Of a stretch of DNA of 64,000 bases, positions 2,181-10,163 are shown in pieces (position 1 is the first letter of the stretch; each line of letters begins with the position of its first letter). The stretch comes from Opitutaceae bacterium. Lineage in GTDB: Bacteria; Verrucomicrobiota; Verrucomicrobiia; Opitutales; Opitutaceae. Both the position numbers and the translations under genes were made by a program. Location of the stretch: NCBI GenBank assembly GCA_030693515.1, contig JAUYAK010000048.1, positions 1 through 64,000 on the forward strand. The letters run 5' to 3'. Under the pieces are notes generated by a model. It was not told the origin of the DNA. It did no database searches and saw only the letters and a list, made by a program, of their open reading frames with translations.

Positions 2181-3830
2181 TCAGTTTAGCTCGATCACTT
2201 TCACGCGCTGGTTGAATTCAGCGTCCGGCGAGGTCCGGAGCTTTCGCCCACTCGTCGTGGTCAGGTTGCGGATCGTCACCTGCTCGGTCAGCCGGTAGGG
2301 AAACGGCCGCGCCTCCGTGCTCGCCTTCGCGCCGTCCGGGTCCGTGAAGAGATAGGGCCCCTGGTAGTCCTTGGGATGACGGCTGTCGTCGATGACCAGT
2401 CCGTCGATGATGACCTTGGCCGGCATGAAGCAGGGATAACCGAAATCGTGCTGCCCGTCGTTGCTCCCGGCGATCACGTGGGGCTGGATCCCCGTGCCGC
2501 AGCCGGGAAGCCAGCGGCTGTTGCGGATCACGACCGTGCCCTCCCAGGTGCTGCCGTAGTCGCCGCGAAAACTGAGCAGCGACCGGCCGTTCAAGGTGGA
2601 ATCCTCGACCGTCAATGTGCCCCGGCCGATGGCGTTCAGTCCCGCGTGGCCCAGGGTGCAGCCGCGGATCGTGTAGGTGCCGGAGACGCCTTGGTGCGTG
2701 TCCATGCGCGACAGCGTGCAGTTCTCCAGGAGGATGTTCTTGCAGAAGTTGGTCCCGATTACGCCCCAGCGCGTGGGGTCGCAGATGTTGTCCATCCGGC
2801 AGCCGATCATCGTGAAGTTCACCACCTCGTTCGCGCCCACGTCGTAGGTGCCCATGGTCACCGGCTTCCCGGCGGACCCGATCGTGGTGTAGGTCTTGTG
2901 CCCGGTGAGGTAGCAGTCACGCAGGGTGACGTTGGCGCAGCCGCTGACCGAAAGAAACCCGCTGTAGGGCTGGCCGACATCGGTCTCGCCGACGATGTGG
3001 TGGGTCAGCCCTGCGACCGTGGTGTTCGAGCGGGTGATGGCGATGTTCCGCGCCCAGTAGTTGTAACCCTTCTCCGCCTTCAGCCGGTTGGCGGTCGTGG
3101 TGAAGACCCCGCCGCGGACGATTAGCGGTTGCTCGTCGATCGGGCGGGCTTCCACGCGCGTGATCGTGGCGTAGTCCCAATCGATGTCGCCCTCGATCGT
3201 GCCGTCGCGGCGCAGGATGAAACAATCGCGCTGGGGCGAGCCGTTGTTCTGGTTGAGACCCCGGCGGATGTAGATCCGCTTGAGGTTGCTCTCGACGCGC
3301 ACCCAGCAGTCGCGGGGCGGCTGGACGTCGAGGTGCCGCTGGTCCCGGGTCAGCCGCTTGATCGCCAGCGTCACGGGGGCCAGCAGCGAGCGCACGGCGA
3401 AGAGCGAGGTGCGGGAGTTCTCGACGTCGGTGTCGTCGACCACAAAGCGCGAGGTGCTCCAGTCCGTGTCGGTGGCGATGATGGCAGTGAGCGCACGGCG
3501 GCCGAGGTGATAGGTGGCGTCGGCCTCGGTCTTGACCGGCAGGCCGTGGGCGTTGGCGAAGGCGTGCGCCTCGACGATGGCCGGCAAATCGTCAGCCACA
3601 CCGTCTCCGACCGCGCCAAACGCCTCGTAGCTGACGGGCCGATCGGTGGGGACATTTCGTTTGTTCTCCGCCGCGGCGAAGCCCGGGGCCACGACCACGG
3701 CCGCCGCAACCCCGAGCAAGACCATCAGCAGCAGCCCACGGGCAAAGCTGCCGGGTCTGCGCACGGGGCGAGCGCCACGGTCTTTGAGGAGCAAACGGGA
3801 CGGATCGCACAAACGTAAAGAACGGGACAT
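2181..3830 (-). CDS. exported right-handed beta-helix protein (pectate-lyase superfamily)
   Basis: About 549 residues from the ATG at 3830; a GTG at 3875 would add 15 residues. A basic N-terminus is followed by a hydrophobic segment (GLLLMVLLGVAAAVVVAPGFAAA), giving a signal peptide or anchor. The motif SYEAFGAVGDGVADDLPAI is the hallmark start of the Pectate_lyase_3/GH28-like helix. Many short repeats follow, such as NVTLRDCYLTGH, NILLENCTLSRM and TYTIRGCTLGHAG, typical of parallel beta-helix rungs. No catalytic residues could be assigned, so it may be a polysaccharide lyase, a hydrolase or a binding protein. It sits downstream of the HigA gene but is probably unrelated to it. Confidence 0.75.
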   Translation of the reverse strand: MSRSLRLCDPSRLLLKDRGARPVRRPGSFARGLLLMVLLGVAAAVVVAPGFAAAENKRNVPTDRPVSYEAFGAVGDGVADDLPAIVEAHAFANAHGLPVKTEADATYHLGRRALTAIIATDTDWSTSRFVVDDTDVENSRTSLFAVRSLLAPVTLAIKRLTRDQRHLDVQPPRDCWVRVESNLKRIYIRRGLNQNNGSPQRDCFILRRDGTIEGDIDWDYATITRVEARPIDEQPLIVRGGVFTTTANRLKAEKGYNYWARNIAITRSNTTVAGLTHHIVGETDVGQPYSGFLSVSGCANVTLRDCYLTGHKTYTTIGSAGKPVTMGTYDVGANEVVNFTMIGCRMDNICDPTRWGVIGTNFCKNILLENCTLSRMDTHQGVSGTYTIRGCTLGHAGLNAIGRGTLTVEDSTLNGRSLLSFRGDYGSTWEGTVVIRNSRWLPGCGTGIQPHVIAGSNDGQHDFGYPCFMPAKVIIDGLVIDDSRHPKDYQGPYLFTDPDGAKASTEARPFPYRLTEQVTIRNLTTTSGRKLRTSPDAEFNQRVKVIELN

Positions 3831-3871
3831 GGGAGGAAAGACGTGAACTCGGCTCGAGCGTTCCGCCGCAC

Positions 3872-4297
3872 TCACGGCAAGAGTGCCGCGGGGTCGAGAC
3901 CATAGGTGTCCGCGACCTTCCGGATTTGCCCCGCCGTCAACTGCCGTTCACCGCGCAGAATCCGGTAGGCCAGCGATGGGTCGATACTGATGAGCTTCGC
4001 CAGTTCGGCCGCACCATCTCCCCGCTCGGTCAACGCCAGTCGCAGCAATTCCGGACCCCGGGCCCGGGCGATGGGAAATTGCGCGCTCTCCCATTTCTCA
4101 TACAGGTCGCTGAGCAAATCGAGATAGTCGGACTGCTCGGCGTTGAGCGCATGGCCGGCGAGCCGGTCGATCATCTCCGCGGCGTTGTCGGCATCGACTT
4201 GATCGTGAATCGGGCGAATCAAGTGCATCGCCATCAAACCGGCATAAGTCTTCGGGAGCTTGGCGAACGTCGGCGCGGCGCGAGGGGCGGTTTTCAT
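3872..4297 (-). CDS. higA: HigA-type antitoxin / XRE regulator
   Basis: 141 residues. The C-terminal part carries a helix-turn-helix: DGAAELAKLISIDPSLAYRILRGERQLTAGQIRKVADTYGL is the XRE fold of HigA antitoxins. The N-terminal half (NAAEMIDRLAGHALNAEQSDYLDLLSDLYEKWE) matches the toxin-binding region of the longer HigA class. It should bind DNA and neutralise a HigB mRNA endonuclease. Immediately upstream lies only the tail of a higB reading frame, overlapping by ATGA, so the toxin partner appears lost. Its TGA overlaps an alternative GTG of the beta-helix gene, which I judge coincidental. Confidence 0.8.
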   Translation of the reverse strand: MKTAPRAAPTFAKLPKTYAGLMAMHLIRPIHDQVDADNAAEMIDRLAGHALNAEQSDYLDLLSDLYEKWESAQFPIARARGPELLRLALTERGDGAAELAKLISIDPSLAYRILRGERQLTAGQIRKVADTYGLDPAALLP

Positions 4298-4362: not shown

Positions 4363-4620
4363 CCGCGGAAGGAGCAAAGTCCCAAGTCGCAAGACGGAGC
4401 GAAGAACCAACCGCCAACCGGATCGAACCTTCAACTCTCAACTTCAAGCAGCCGGAGGCTGCTTGAATAATGCTCTCCTCGAAACCGGCCATGCGGTTCG
4501 CTACGACGGAGGGGCGAAGGATTCCGAATGACCAAAGCCGGCGCCAAATCAGGACTGGTTCGCTCTCCCAATCTTCACCCGCCAGCTTTCCACTTTTCGC
4601 GGCACCAGCCACGCCCTCCG
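4363..4620. repeat. intergenic repeat-like stretch with a 9-bp perfect hairpin
   Basis: No gene is supported here. The stretch contains degenerate short repeats such as TCAACTCTCAACTTCAA and a perfect stem-loop at 4445-4465 (CAAGCAGCC, loop GGA, GGCTGCTTG). It lies downstream of the methylase gene on the minus strand and could act as a weak terminator, although no T-tract follows. This block appears to have replaced the 5' part of higB. Confidence 0.45.
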
Positions 4621-5538
4621 CTATGAACGACGAGGCGATGTTGATTGTTCCCGCAGACCCTCTGTTCGCCCTAGGACCGCCAATGCCTCCTCGGGAATCG
4701 TTACGTGCGCCGGTGCGATAAGCACCTCGTTGCCATTTGTAGAGGCTCGATGGGCCGAATACCGCAAGTTGAAGCTGTGGAGTTGCTGCTCGTCGTATAA
4801 TTCTCGGATACGGGGAACATCATCATACGTTATCACCCAAGGACAGGTCGCTTCGCGACACATTAGGTCCGCGAAAGCTTGATGGTCGGCATCTCCGTAG
4901 TGACTCAAATAAAGTTCTCTGCCCTTTAAGTAGTAAGGTGGATCGGCATACACAAAGCACGAATCGACGTTCTCAACATGGGGGCCGAGGTTCCGAATCA
5001 GGTCGGCAGCGTCCTCGCGGAGGACCGTGATCCGATCACCGTAGGTCGACAAATCTTCAATGCGAGCCGCAAGATTGTCCCGGTTAAAGCGCGCATCGAG
5101 CTTCCATTCACCCTCTTGGGAAACTCCGCCGATCGGTCCGCCGTTCTTGATGATTCCCGACCGGTTGCAGCGGTTGAGATAAAATGCCGCAAAACCGATC
5201 TCGACTTGGCTCCGGCGGCCGGGACTGCGATAGATTTCCCGCTGCTTCCGCCATTCCGCCATCGTCAACGGCGTCGTATGAATTCTTTCGATCAATTCGT
5301 CCGTTCTTTTCATCACGCTGTTCCAAAAGCAAAAAACGGCTCGATCCGCGTCGTTTATGATGACTCGGTCAACATGCCCTTCACGCAGGAGCTTCAGTCC
5401 CGCACCCGCACCACCTGCAAACGGCTCGATGTAGGTGCAACCCTGAAGGCCGTTGGCATAGATGATTTTTTGGAGGACCTCGGTCAGCGAAACCTTACCT
5501 CCAGGGTAGCGCAAAGGGCTCGGATTGCGGGCGATCAT
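4621..5538 (-). CDS. DNA adenine methylase (Dam/M.MboII-like, class D12)
   Basis: 305 residues, normal for the D12 class. The SAM site is near residues 36-48 (YIEPFAGGAGAG) with the N-terminal LRYPGGK motif, and the catalytic motif DPPYY is at 199-203. It should transfer a methyl group from S-adenosylmethionine to N6 of adenine in a specific DNA site; the site is not predictable. Its start overlaps the stop of the upstream ParB-domain gene by 4 bp (ATGA), so the two form one unit. Base composition is visibly lower in GC than flanking genes, which suggests transfer. No restriction endonuclease is adjacent, so it is either an orphan methylase or the modification part of an undescribed pair. Confidence 0.9.
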   Translation of the reverse strand: MIARNPSPLRYPGGKVSLTEVLQKIIYANGLQGCTYIEPFAGGAGAGLKLLREGHVDRVIINDADRAVFCFWNSVMKRTDELIERIHTTPLTMAEWRKQREIYRSPGRRSQVEIGFAAFYLNRCNRSGIIKNGGPIGGVSQEGEWKLDARFNRDNLAARIEDLSTYGDRITVLREDAADLIRNLGPHVENVDSCFVYADPPYYLKGRELYLSHYGDADHQAFADLMCREATCPWVITYDDVPRIRELYDEQQLHSFNLRYSAHRASTNGNEVLIAPAHVTIPEEALAVLGRTEGLREQSTSPRRS

Positions 5539-6962
5539 GACGGTAGTCGCAGGATTTCGCGCAGCAACGGCATAGCCTGCTCGCGAATCTGGAGGACTGA
5601 CTCACTCGTCGCGAATACGTCGGGACTGTGAACTATGCGATCCAACTCGGGCTTGCTTTGCTTTATCTTACGCGAAACCAGTGCGCCCAAGGCGTTGATG
5701 GTCGTGGGATCAAGTTTAAGTTTCGCATGGTTGGCGTTCACGTAATCGAGCATCACTGCCAGGGATGGTCCGAGTTTGTCGTTCTTCTCCATTGCCCGAG
5801 CCTCATGCCAAAGACGCTGAGACTTTAGGCGGACCACCAGCGCAGTTTCCAACAGGACACGCAATAGGAAGGCGCTGGCGTGCGGTGCGTGAGATATTTC
5901 GAGCCGCTTACCCTCTTCGATTAGCCGGTGGATTTTCTCGTGGGCATGGGTGCTGACGAGATCCCGAGGGAAGAGCCGCCCGGTGGGCTTGGTCGATCTT
6001 CTCGCCATAGCCACATTCGTGGCGCCCCCGGCCGATGGAGTTTTCTCGTTCGCAGCCTTTTTCTCTGACTCGATTTCTTCGACGGTGAATTTCCCTCCTC
6101 CTGCTTCAAAGCCGAGCTGCTCAACGTATCTGAGCTGGTCCTCCTCGGTATTCAAAGAGCGGGTATCGATGCGGTTGTTCGCAGCGTCATCGAGCACCTT
6201 AGCCAAAAGCGGAAGAAATCTTTCTTTCGTGGAAGTCACGACCAACCCCTTGTCAGTGATGTCGACGCCGAGGATTTCGCGGCTCTTCTTCGGCTTGAAG
6301 ACGCGCTCGAACACGACGGAATGCGGAAACTGCTCGGGATCGTCGACGAGCGCCTTGGCTTCTGGTGTTAGTTCGGCGAGTCGCGCAAGGCGGTAGAGGT
6401 CGACCGCGGCGCGAAAATTGACCACCTCGTCACGGCGAAGGCCATAAGTGGCGCAGAGATCCTCAACGCTGTCCCCCTGATCGAGCTTCGTTGCGATGAA
6501 TGTCGCCTGCTGCACCGGCTTCCAATCGACCGTAAACAGCTCACCGGCGTGTTTGGAGAACATCACCACTTCCGCGTCGAAACGATTGGGCACGAATTCG
6601 ACTGCAATTTTTTTGGGCAATTTCGCCTTTTCCGATAGCCGCCGAAACGTGCGTTGCATACCGACCGGCGCAAGGTCCGGTTTCGCCAATACCTTTAGCG
6701 CGCACAAGCGGCGGTTGCCTTCGTATACTACATTGGCCTTGTCCTCTCTAAATACGATCAATCGATCTTGCCGAAAATAACCCTTGTCAGCGATGGATCG
6801 GGCGAGGGCCTCGATCTTTGAACGCGTGCAAAGTTCATGGATGATTTCTCGCTCGCTCGCTTTGCCCTGTAACTCGGGTAGACGGGGATTTGCCGGATGA
6901 AATTGAAGCTGATTTAGGCTGATAAATCTGGAATCCCAAGTGTCGGAGTCGATGAGGGGCAT
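5535..6962 (-). CDS. ParB/Srx N-terminal-domain protein paired with a DNA methylase
   Basis: 475 residues. The N-terminal 110 residues match the ParB/Srx fold: FISLNQLQFHPANPR, then IEALARSIADKGYF and the ParB-box signature VVYEGNRRLCALKVL. The middle (about 110-300) resembles a ParB helix-turn-helix region (SVEDLCATYGLRRDEVVNF). The C-terminal part (about 335-475) is all-helical with HASAFLLRVLLETALVVRLK and a closing ELDRIVHSPDVFATSESVLQ. That ending resembles helical domains on some defence-associated ATPases and HEPN-like proteins, which is my inference. No ParA is nearby, so chromosome or plasmid partition is unlikely. It is cotranscribed with the methylase. Confidence 0.75.
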   Translation of the reverse strand: MPLIDSDTWDSRFISLNQLQFHPANPRLPELQGKASEREIIHELCTRSKIEALARSIADKGYFRQDRLIVFREDKANVVYEGNRRLCALKVLAKPDLAPVGMQRTFRRLSEKAKLPKKIAVEFVPNRFDAEVVMFSKHAGELFTVDWKPVQQATFIATKLDQGDSVEDLCATYGLRRDEVVNFRAAVDLYRLARLAELTPEAKALVDDPEQFPHSVVFERVFKPKKSREILGVDITDKGLVVTSTKERFLPLLAKVLDDAANNRIDTRSLNTEEDQLRYVEQLGFEAGGGKFTVEEIESEKKAANEKTPSAGGATNVAMARRSTKPTGRLFPRDLVSTHAHEKIHRLIEEGKRLEISHAPHASAFLLRVLLETALVVRLKSQRLWHEARAMEKNDKLGPSLAVMLDYVNANHAKLKLDPTTINALGALVSRKIKQSKPELDRIVHSPDVFATSESVLQIREQAMPLLREILRLPS

Positions 6963-7121
6963 ATGCGAGAGTGCCCTGATTTTTTGCGAAAGACCGCCTC
7001 GCAGTCGAGGCAGAACCTAGCGGAGAGACTTGCGCATCCGCGAGATGCGCACACCGACCGTTTATCCAAAAATCGAGACGTGATCCGGCGCAACACGGGC
7101 CACAAAGAACCCCTTGGACTA
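6963..7121. promoter_or_regulatory. upstream region of the ParB/methylase pair with two hairpins
   Basis: No gene is seen. Two perfect palindromes lie upstream of the ParB-domain start: GCCTCG-CAGT-CGAGGC at 6996-7011 and TGCGCATC-CGCGA-GATGCGCA at 7031-7051. Their position in front of a two-gene unit suggests operators for a DNA-binding product, perhaps the ParB-domain protein itself. They could instead be terminators of something lost. No convincing -35/-10 pair was identified. Confidence 0.35.

Positions 7122-7577: not shown

Positions 7578-10163
<2,586 letters not shown>

Follow-up and report, generated by a model that had tools for sequence, protein, structure and literature searches.

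A stretch of 64,000 nucleotides from an Opitutaceae bacterium (contig JAUYAK010000048.1 of assembly GCA_030693515.1; hereafter the window) carries two overlapping genes which form a copy of the PD-lambda-5 anti-phage system, here located on a bacterial contig. Gene A encodes a protein combining a ParB/Srx fold, a helix-turn-helix (HTH) and a predicted HEPN-fold domain, and gene B encodes an adenine DNA methyltransferase. The pair is best read, with a probability of about 0.6, as a module in which the methylase would mark the DNA of its own host, the ParB-like part would act as a sensor controlled by nucleoside triphosphate (NTP), and the HEPN domain would cleave RNA with an abortive outcome. 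The features of the module are:

5535..6962, minus strand: gene A, ParB/Srx, HTH and HEPN-fold protein of 475 amino acids (open reading frame, PADLOC, phrog, fold model)
4621..5538, minus strand: gene B, D12-class N6-adenine DNA methyltransferase of 305 amino acids (open reading frame, Pfam, PADLOC)
5535..5538, minus strand: 4-bp overlap of A and B, ATGA, containing the stop of A and the start of B (sequence)
6531..6962, minus strand: ParB/Srx-fold NTP-binding domain of A, about residues 1-144, with N25, R27 and GNRR at 82-85
6708-6719, minus strand: GNRR motif of A, residues 82-85 (alignment)
6093..6530, minus strand: middle helical region of A with a ParB-type HTH, about residues 145-290
5538..5951, minus strand: HEPN-fold domain of A, residues 338-475, with conserved E350, R368, E372 and H445
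5859..5861, minus strand: R368 in HEPN helix 2, proposed stand-in for the lost motif arginine (50/50 rows)
5628..5630, minus strand: H445 at the end of HEPN helix 3 (helix 439-445; 50/50 rows)
4933..4944, minus strand: DPPY catalytic motif of B, residues 199-202 (invariant in 12/12)

Identity of the pair and architecture of its proteins

A first-pass annotation, made from the letters alone, had described a ParB/Srx-fold protein overlapping a D12-class adenine methylase by 4 bp, an arrangement which was recovered unchanged on the minus strand, and had proposed the pair as an undescribed system with a possible defence role. The novelty is rejected because PADLOC models of PD-Lambda-5, a system already published, match both genes; the defence role stands as the best reading, since A and B match an anti-phage system found experimentally. 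Protein A is matched by the PD-Lambda-5_A models PDLC04017 (expectation value, E, 7.4e-47, residues 2-378) and PDLC04007 (E 8.4e-39, residues 15-470), and B by the PD-Lambda-5_B model PDLC04018 (E 4.9e-107, residues 4-285 of 305). Moreover, A matches phrog_9592 (E 1.4e-47, residues 10-471), a family of phage proteins without an assigned function. PD-lambda-5 originates from the functional selection of Vassallo et al. 2022, in which it protects E. coli against phages, the host strain used being devoid of the mrr region (PMC9519451). Passages of later articles already count it among HEPN systems (PMC11811056) and report it as frequent in prophages (PMC10482375).

Sequence comparison alone says little about the fold of A. 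Pfam gave no match up to E 1, phmmer against the PDB returned only three unrelated dehydrogenases (E about 0.5), an A profile against the PDB returned two isomerases plus a protein with a ParB-like nuclease domain (E about 0.08), and NCBIfam produced a single, meaningless weak match. Among 50 relatives, GmrSD_N was found in one (E 0.0099) and ParB_N in two. An AlphaFold model built on a 50-row alignment reached a mean predicted local distance difference test score (pLDDT) of 88.1 and a predicted template modelling score (pTM) of 0.63. Its predicted fold comprises a ParB/Srx domain, a ParB-type HTH and a helical C-terminus, as the first-pass annotation had perceived. Model residues 10-144 align with Myxococcus xanthus ParB (7bnr; Z 10.2, root-mean-square deviation, rmsd, 2.1, 93 aligned), and residues 10-282 with KorB (8qa9; Z 10.2, rmsd 3.8, 192 aligned); Noc and Spo0J are further ParB-type matches of the N-terminal part.

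The C-terminal part is matched by 2hsb (Z 9.5, rmsd 2.9, 115 aligned) and 2q00 (Z 9.1, rmsd 3.4, 120 aligned), followed by sacsin 3o10 (Z 8.2), AbiA 8oz7 (7.9), Csm6 8jh1 (7.6), the HEPN toxin 7ae6 (7.4) and HepT 6m6w (7.1), all values below 13, at which a helical bundle may reflect merely a shared arrangement. Of the 50 structure entries listed, 11 align to residues 334-475, and all are HEPN structures or HEPN-domain proteins, the labels of 2q00, AbiA and Csm6 being taken from PMC3710099. The HEPN histidine is placed at the end of helix 3 in the same source (PMC3710099). As modelled, the C-terminal domain of A is a HEPN fold, an assignment which is convincing because all 11 covering entries carry HEPN and the conserved histidine of A sits at the place of the HEPN histidine; an earlier hint of HEPN is thereby borne out at the level of the fold.

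Across the 50 rows, H445 and R368 are invariant, position 372 is E in 44 and D in 6, and E350 is retained in 46; these are the sole charged positions of the HEPN domain common to at least 30 rows. In the first alignment of 12 rows R368 was near-invariant, and L023, a phage relative not included in the 50 rows, is without it. The P-motif GNRR is conserved in 50/50 rows. As the viral scan supplying many of the long-A rows used the pattern EGNRR, this conservation is partly by construction in those rows, a bias which affects neither the 16 rows retrieved via the methylase nor the HEPN residues. In other ParB-like proteins, nucleotide binding depends on the arginine of the P-motif (PMC12704722). 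In Vibrio phage ValB1MD-2 (L015:3132-4684), A is split into two overlapping frames of 252 and 265 amino acids, corresponding roughly to a ParB-HTH and a HEPN portion.

Protein B belongs to MethyltransfD12 (PF02086, E 2.8e-20) and has intact motifs (PLRYPGGK, FAGGAG and DPPY), in agreement with its first description as a D12-class adenine methylase; PLRYPGGK and DPPY are invariant in 12/12 sequences. It lies under the NCBIfam cut-off for Dam (TIGR00571, 59.7 bits vs 114.85).

Conserved pairing and a sister branch with a separate putative nuclease

Relatives of A are sporadic. With A or its PADLOC model as query, matches were found in 3/95 near genomes (the own genome, G038 with a long form and G001 with a short form) and in 6/387 genomes of a phylum sample (the own genome, two long and three short forms). 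Further matches came from 19 phage records, 5 plasmids, one additional genome and 74 viral contigs retrieved by pattern scan. All the plasmids and 10/19 phage records were examined, the other nine appearing from their match coordinates to be repeats or near relatives. After the removal of four duplicates (L044, L045, L054, L094) from 99 A frames, 95 were tallied: 43 long, 37 short and 15 fragmentary or divergent. The window's own loci (L001, L002, L007) were left out, L015 was counted twice on account of its split A, and near-identical but slightly differing relatives (e.g. L095/L096) were tallied separately. Of the 12 seeds behind the A profile, all except the window's own also occur in the tally, and a form was called long when profile coverage extended to position 440 or beyond (at least 400 in the methylase-side tally).

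B lies within 1.5 kb of long A in 42/43 distinct loci, so that the two genes, whose joint conservation had been put forward as a check of the defence reading, are not rarely found together. In 34 of these pairs B is downstream on the same strand and in 8 it is on the opposite strand. The exception is a Vibrio phage (L025:1-3284), in which the neighbour of A bears the annotation of a type II restriction enzyme and a B-type methylase (H35) is encoded elsewhere in the record. The 15 fragmentary or divergent A frames are accompanied by B in ten cases, by a protein here called X in one, by both in one and by neither in three, all of them at contig ends.

The association was also examined from the methylase side, where 554 loci were confirmed, the top 80 of which comprise 40 distinct strong ones (profile score at least 200), 38 weak ones and 2 duplicates. 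Among the strong loci, 23 have a long A, one has a long A broken in two frames (L139) and three have a short A with X; six of those with long A are contigs already present in the A-side tally. Another 11 have an ABC-type ATPase, and two have no partner in view, one starting at a contig end and the other being a cut methylase. None of the 38 weak D12 methylases has any such partner in the sequence examined, many of these contigs being short. The ATPases were assigned to AAA_15/AAA_21 by Pfam in 9/11 loci and in one E. coli case, and by profile only in the remaining two. In L103, L105, L109, L114, L115, L118, L125, L127, L129, L131 and L134, in E. coli (L189, L190) and in a Citrobacter phage (L191), a methylase of this subfamily immediately follows an ATPase of about 470-580 amino acids, assigned to AAA_15/AAA_21 where scanned. 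These sets are another candidate methylase-plus-effector pair.

Short A, of about 370 amino acids, keeps different company: X lies within 1.5 kb in 36/37 loci and B in 5/37. A profile of the HEPN part (E 0.01), trained on many of the same long A proteins, matches 42/43 long and 0/37 short forms. Conversely, X or a C-5 cytosine methylase is in view in 0/43 long-A loci. The C-5 methylase is found within 3 kb in 24/37 short-A loci and is convergent in 17/24; PF00145 was verified in three loci, and the others rely on a profile built from those three. By methylase, the short-A loci thus divide into 24 with C-5, five with B and eight with neither, four of which have less than 1.1 kb of downstream sequence; either type is present in 29/37. 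The loci with short A and X (L013:96-3266, L016:3959-6950, L017:3950-7019 and 33 others) come from P2-like and other phages, plasmids and genomes.

The model of X, built on a 30-row alignment, has a pLDDT of 84.7. Foldseek gave no match at E <=0.001, the best being MspJI chains at E 0.005 to 0.055. With VIA-align, MspJI ranked first (Z 7.3, rmsd 4.2, 145 aligned), followed by EcoT38I, FokI, BspD6I, BsaWI, Bse634I and CRISPR or NucC nucleases, with modest scores throughout and no entry reaching Z 8. Most of the structures listed are PD-(D/E)XK-type nucleases, and at these modest scores X may be regarded as a putative PD-(D/E)XK-like, MspJI-like nuclease. Residues D220 and Q241 are invariant and K252 is nearly invariant in the 30 rows. 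Against PADLOC, X had no relevant model; three weak, unrelated matches concerned one member each of the 30.

To judge from gene content, short ParB with X, mostly accompanied by the cytosine methylase, is a possible undescribed defence system. No paper describing it was found by title or start of abstract, in a search that covered subscription papers and bioRxiv thinly, and the main text of Rousset et al. 2022, as far as available (PMC9122126), has no mention of ParB, methyltransferase, methylase or Wphi. Since long A pairs with B and the HEPN-less short A with X, self-marking by methylation together with a swappable nuclease under ParB control is suggested. More broadly, and at somewhat less than even odds, both branches would belong to one modular family, whose core would consist of a ParB-type NTP switch and a self-marking methylase, and whose nuclease would be exchanged. 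One branch would combine an adenine methylase with a fused HEPN part, and the other would have an MspJI-like PD-(D/E)XK protein encoded separately, in most cases together with a cytosine methylase. On the same tentative footing, the second branch, which occurs for instance in the P2-like phages Wphi and vB_EcoM-12474III, would represent a defence system not yet described, and in the HEPN branch the arginine would have moved from helix 3 to helix 2.

Genomic setting

The pair is lower in guanine and cytosine content (GC) than its surroundings, as first noticed: 0.552 in the module and 0.669 in the window, with none of 1140 overlapping same-length segments outside the module as low (minimum 0.605). 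Third-position GC is 0.65 and 0.60 in the module genes vs 0.88 in clpB. The neighbouring genes are:

1464-1763: ParE-like toxin, overlapping the antitoxin by 4 bp (Pfam)
1760-1993: Unstab_antitox antitoxin, paired with the ParE-like toxin (Pfam)
2181-3875: protein with a weak beta-helix match, below the cut-off (Pfam)
3872-4297: HTH gene of BetR/HTH_3 type, behind the methylase and on the same strand (Pfam)
7578-10163: clpB

Where the first-pass annotation had seen toxin-antitoxin remnants, the pair at 1464-1993 looks intact and ParE-like, and what lies at 3872-4297 is an HTH gene, possibly an orphan antitoxin. The IS3 end which it had placed nearby was not retrieved: the rve integrase-core family occurs at four places in the genome and at none on this contig, in a search blind to insertion sequence fragments without an rve domain. 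Both palindromes it had listed ahead of the module exist, one at 6996 with arms of 6 and one at 7031-7051 with arms of 8, but repeats of this kind are no rarity in the window, since inverted repeats are equally many in 44/809 (arms of 6) and 40/809 (arms of 8) of its equal-length segments; their interpretation as operators was dropped for that reason. No promoter was predicted between 4200 and 7600, and terminator-like sites were fewer than the mean of shuffled sequences. The window-wide RNA search returned no transfer RNA and no Rfam match at the gathering threshold. A perfect inverted repeat of 11 bp with a 3-base loop occupies 4443-4467, in the intergenic space separating the methylase from the HTH gene.

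Among the eight neighbouring and module proteins of the window scanned with Pfam, no ParA-like family and no separate restriction endonuclease family was found, as the earlier reading had it. The region around the module is variable, because seven same-genus stretches keep clpB and in none of them was any of nine tested neighbour proteins matched (tblastn); one of the seven (L187) stops about 0.8 kb past clpB and tells little. The variable region begins immediately past clpB. In one same-genus genome, a second stretch near clpB (L186:4414-5033, 620 bases) shows 84% identity with a portion of clpB from the window. A and B have one match each in their own genome, both inside the window, and a plasmid search with the module DNA gave no match.

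Proposed mechanism, alternatives and relation to known systems

In the proposed mechanism, B would methylate adenines in host DNA at its own recognition sequence, thereby providing a self-mark. Protein A would be an NTP-controlled DNA-binding sensor, loading on unmarked DNA or on DNA which betrays infection in some other way. Once it is loaded, its HEPN domain would assume an active form, probably that of a dimer, and would cut RNA, so that phage multiplication stops, the infected cell probably being sacrificed. Such self-marking resembles restriction-modification, and the action of the effector resembles abortive infection.

Several observations weigh against this reading. Foremost, the arginine of the HEPN motif Rx4-6H is missing in 50/50 rows (position 440 is L in 41, F in 5, M in 2, T in 1 and I in 1), which renders RNase activity of A uncertain. 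DNA searches with seven relatives as queries found no long-A pair in E. coli genomes that could represent the tested E. coli pair; they matched methylases only, and of three such cases the two inspected both stand beside ATPases. The PADLOC A models are broad, as the short ParB of the sister system also matches (E 4.9e-21). Furthermore, the correlation of A and B distances (r 0.686 over 57 non-redundant pairs including the window's; best of 2000 permutations 0.17), which speaks in favour of the module, would also arise from the co-inheritance of adjacent genes without any protein interaction. With regard to the arginine, the Parep1/8 family (2q00) shows the same loss, is kept among HEPN domains, and has other conserved basic residues suggested as a replacement (PMC3710099), and the fold assignment of A stands on this precedent. 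R368 is the natural candidate for having taken over the role of the lost motif arginine.

The missing arginine would also suit direct restriction, in which unmethylated phage DNA would be cleaved by the ParB/Srx domain, whose superfamily has members reported to be nucleases, and HEPN would serve for RNA binding or dimerisation only. A nicking activity of ParB/Srx is cited in a survey of BREX (PMC12839542), and the short ParB of the sister system is paired with a DNase-like protein. Yet a ParB acting as nuclease would spare the short form a separate nuclease, which 36/37 loci nevertheless have, and H445, R368 and E/D372 are conserved as well as the ParB motif; direct restriction is thus unlikely. 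About equally improbable is a switch of toxin-antitoxin type, in which methylation of a promoter or of target sites keeps a ParB-HEPN toxin off until phage interference with methylation frees it. The overlapping genes, the toxin-type fold and the sporadic distribution in near genomes and the phylum sample (own genome included) accord with it, but the methylase on the opposite strand in 8/42 long pairs fits a self-mark better than tight co-expression, and the same methylase family accompanies ABC-type ATPases in 11/40 strong loci. That the copy is decayed and inactive, as its position in the variable region past clpB might hint, is very unlikely, both frames being intact and lacking none of the residues found invariant in the alignments. 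Least credible of all is a role in plasmid or prophage partition or replication, or as a purely epigenetic regulator without defence function, which the ParB-type fold with HTH and the relatives in phage records and plasmids would allow, but which leaves the conserved HEPN-fold domain unexpected, has no ParA-like partner among the scanned proteins, and must face the match of both genes to an experimentally found defence system.

With self-marking, sensing and RNA cleavage as the preferred reading, the module can be set beside known systems. It shares with PD-lambda-5 the two genes, adjacent as one module, the DNA methylase as B, and the HEPN domain. Unlike it, the present copy adjoins clpB, has no phage protein among the eight scanned, and is distant in sequence, the best segment reaching 46% identity in one relative, a Verrucomicrobiaceae bacterium. 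KorB, Noc and Spo0J resemble A in the fold of residues 10-282 and share its ParB signature, N..R and GxRR; their P-motif is GERR, vs GNRR in A, and A differs in having a HEPN C-terminus instead of the ParB dimerisation domain and no ParA partner in sight. The same absence of a ParA-like partner separates the module from ParABS partition, and type II restriction-modification differs in that no cognate endonuclease was found beside B in the scan, nor X in any of the 43 long-A loci.

Among the systems surveyed by Anantharaman et al. 2013, ParB fused to HEPN is listed (Saro_3948), and the HEPN family MAE_28990 shares operons with genes for ParB and DNA methylases (PMC3710099); A differs in being without the motif arginine. 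PrrC/PrrI and other such pairs likewise combine restriction-modification with a HEPN RNase as fallback (PMC3710099), whereas here no hsdMSR genes were seen, and sensor and effector would reside in one protein. In the type IV restriction system GmrSD a ParB/Srx-fold domain is also part of a defence nuclease (PMC10952713), but A shows no DUF262/GmrSD_N or HNH (DUF1524) match in Pfam up to E 1, comes with its own methylase, and would be expected to act on DNA lacking the mark, not on modified DNA.

The identification of one more copy is in itself routine, and the points of wider interest are the effector swap and the sister system: if active, the sets of short ParB, PD-(D/E)XK protein and methylase would be a new restriction-like system, carried also by P2-like phages. 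The comparison further yields predictions on how PD-lambda-5 may work, namely its catalytic residues, ParB as the sensor, and effectors which would be exchangeable between the branches.

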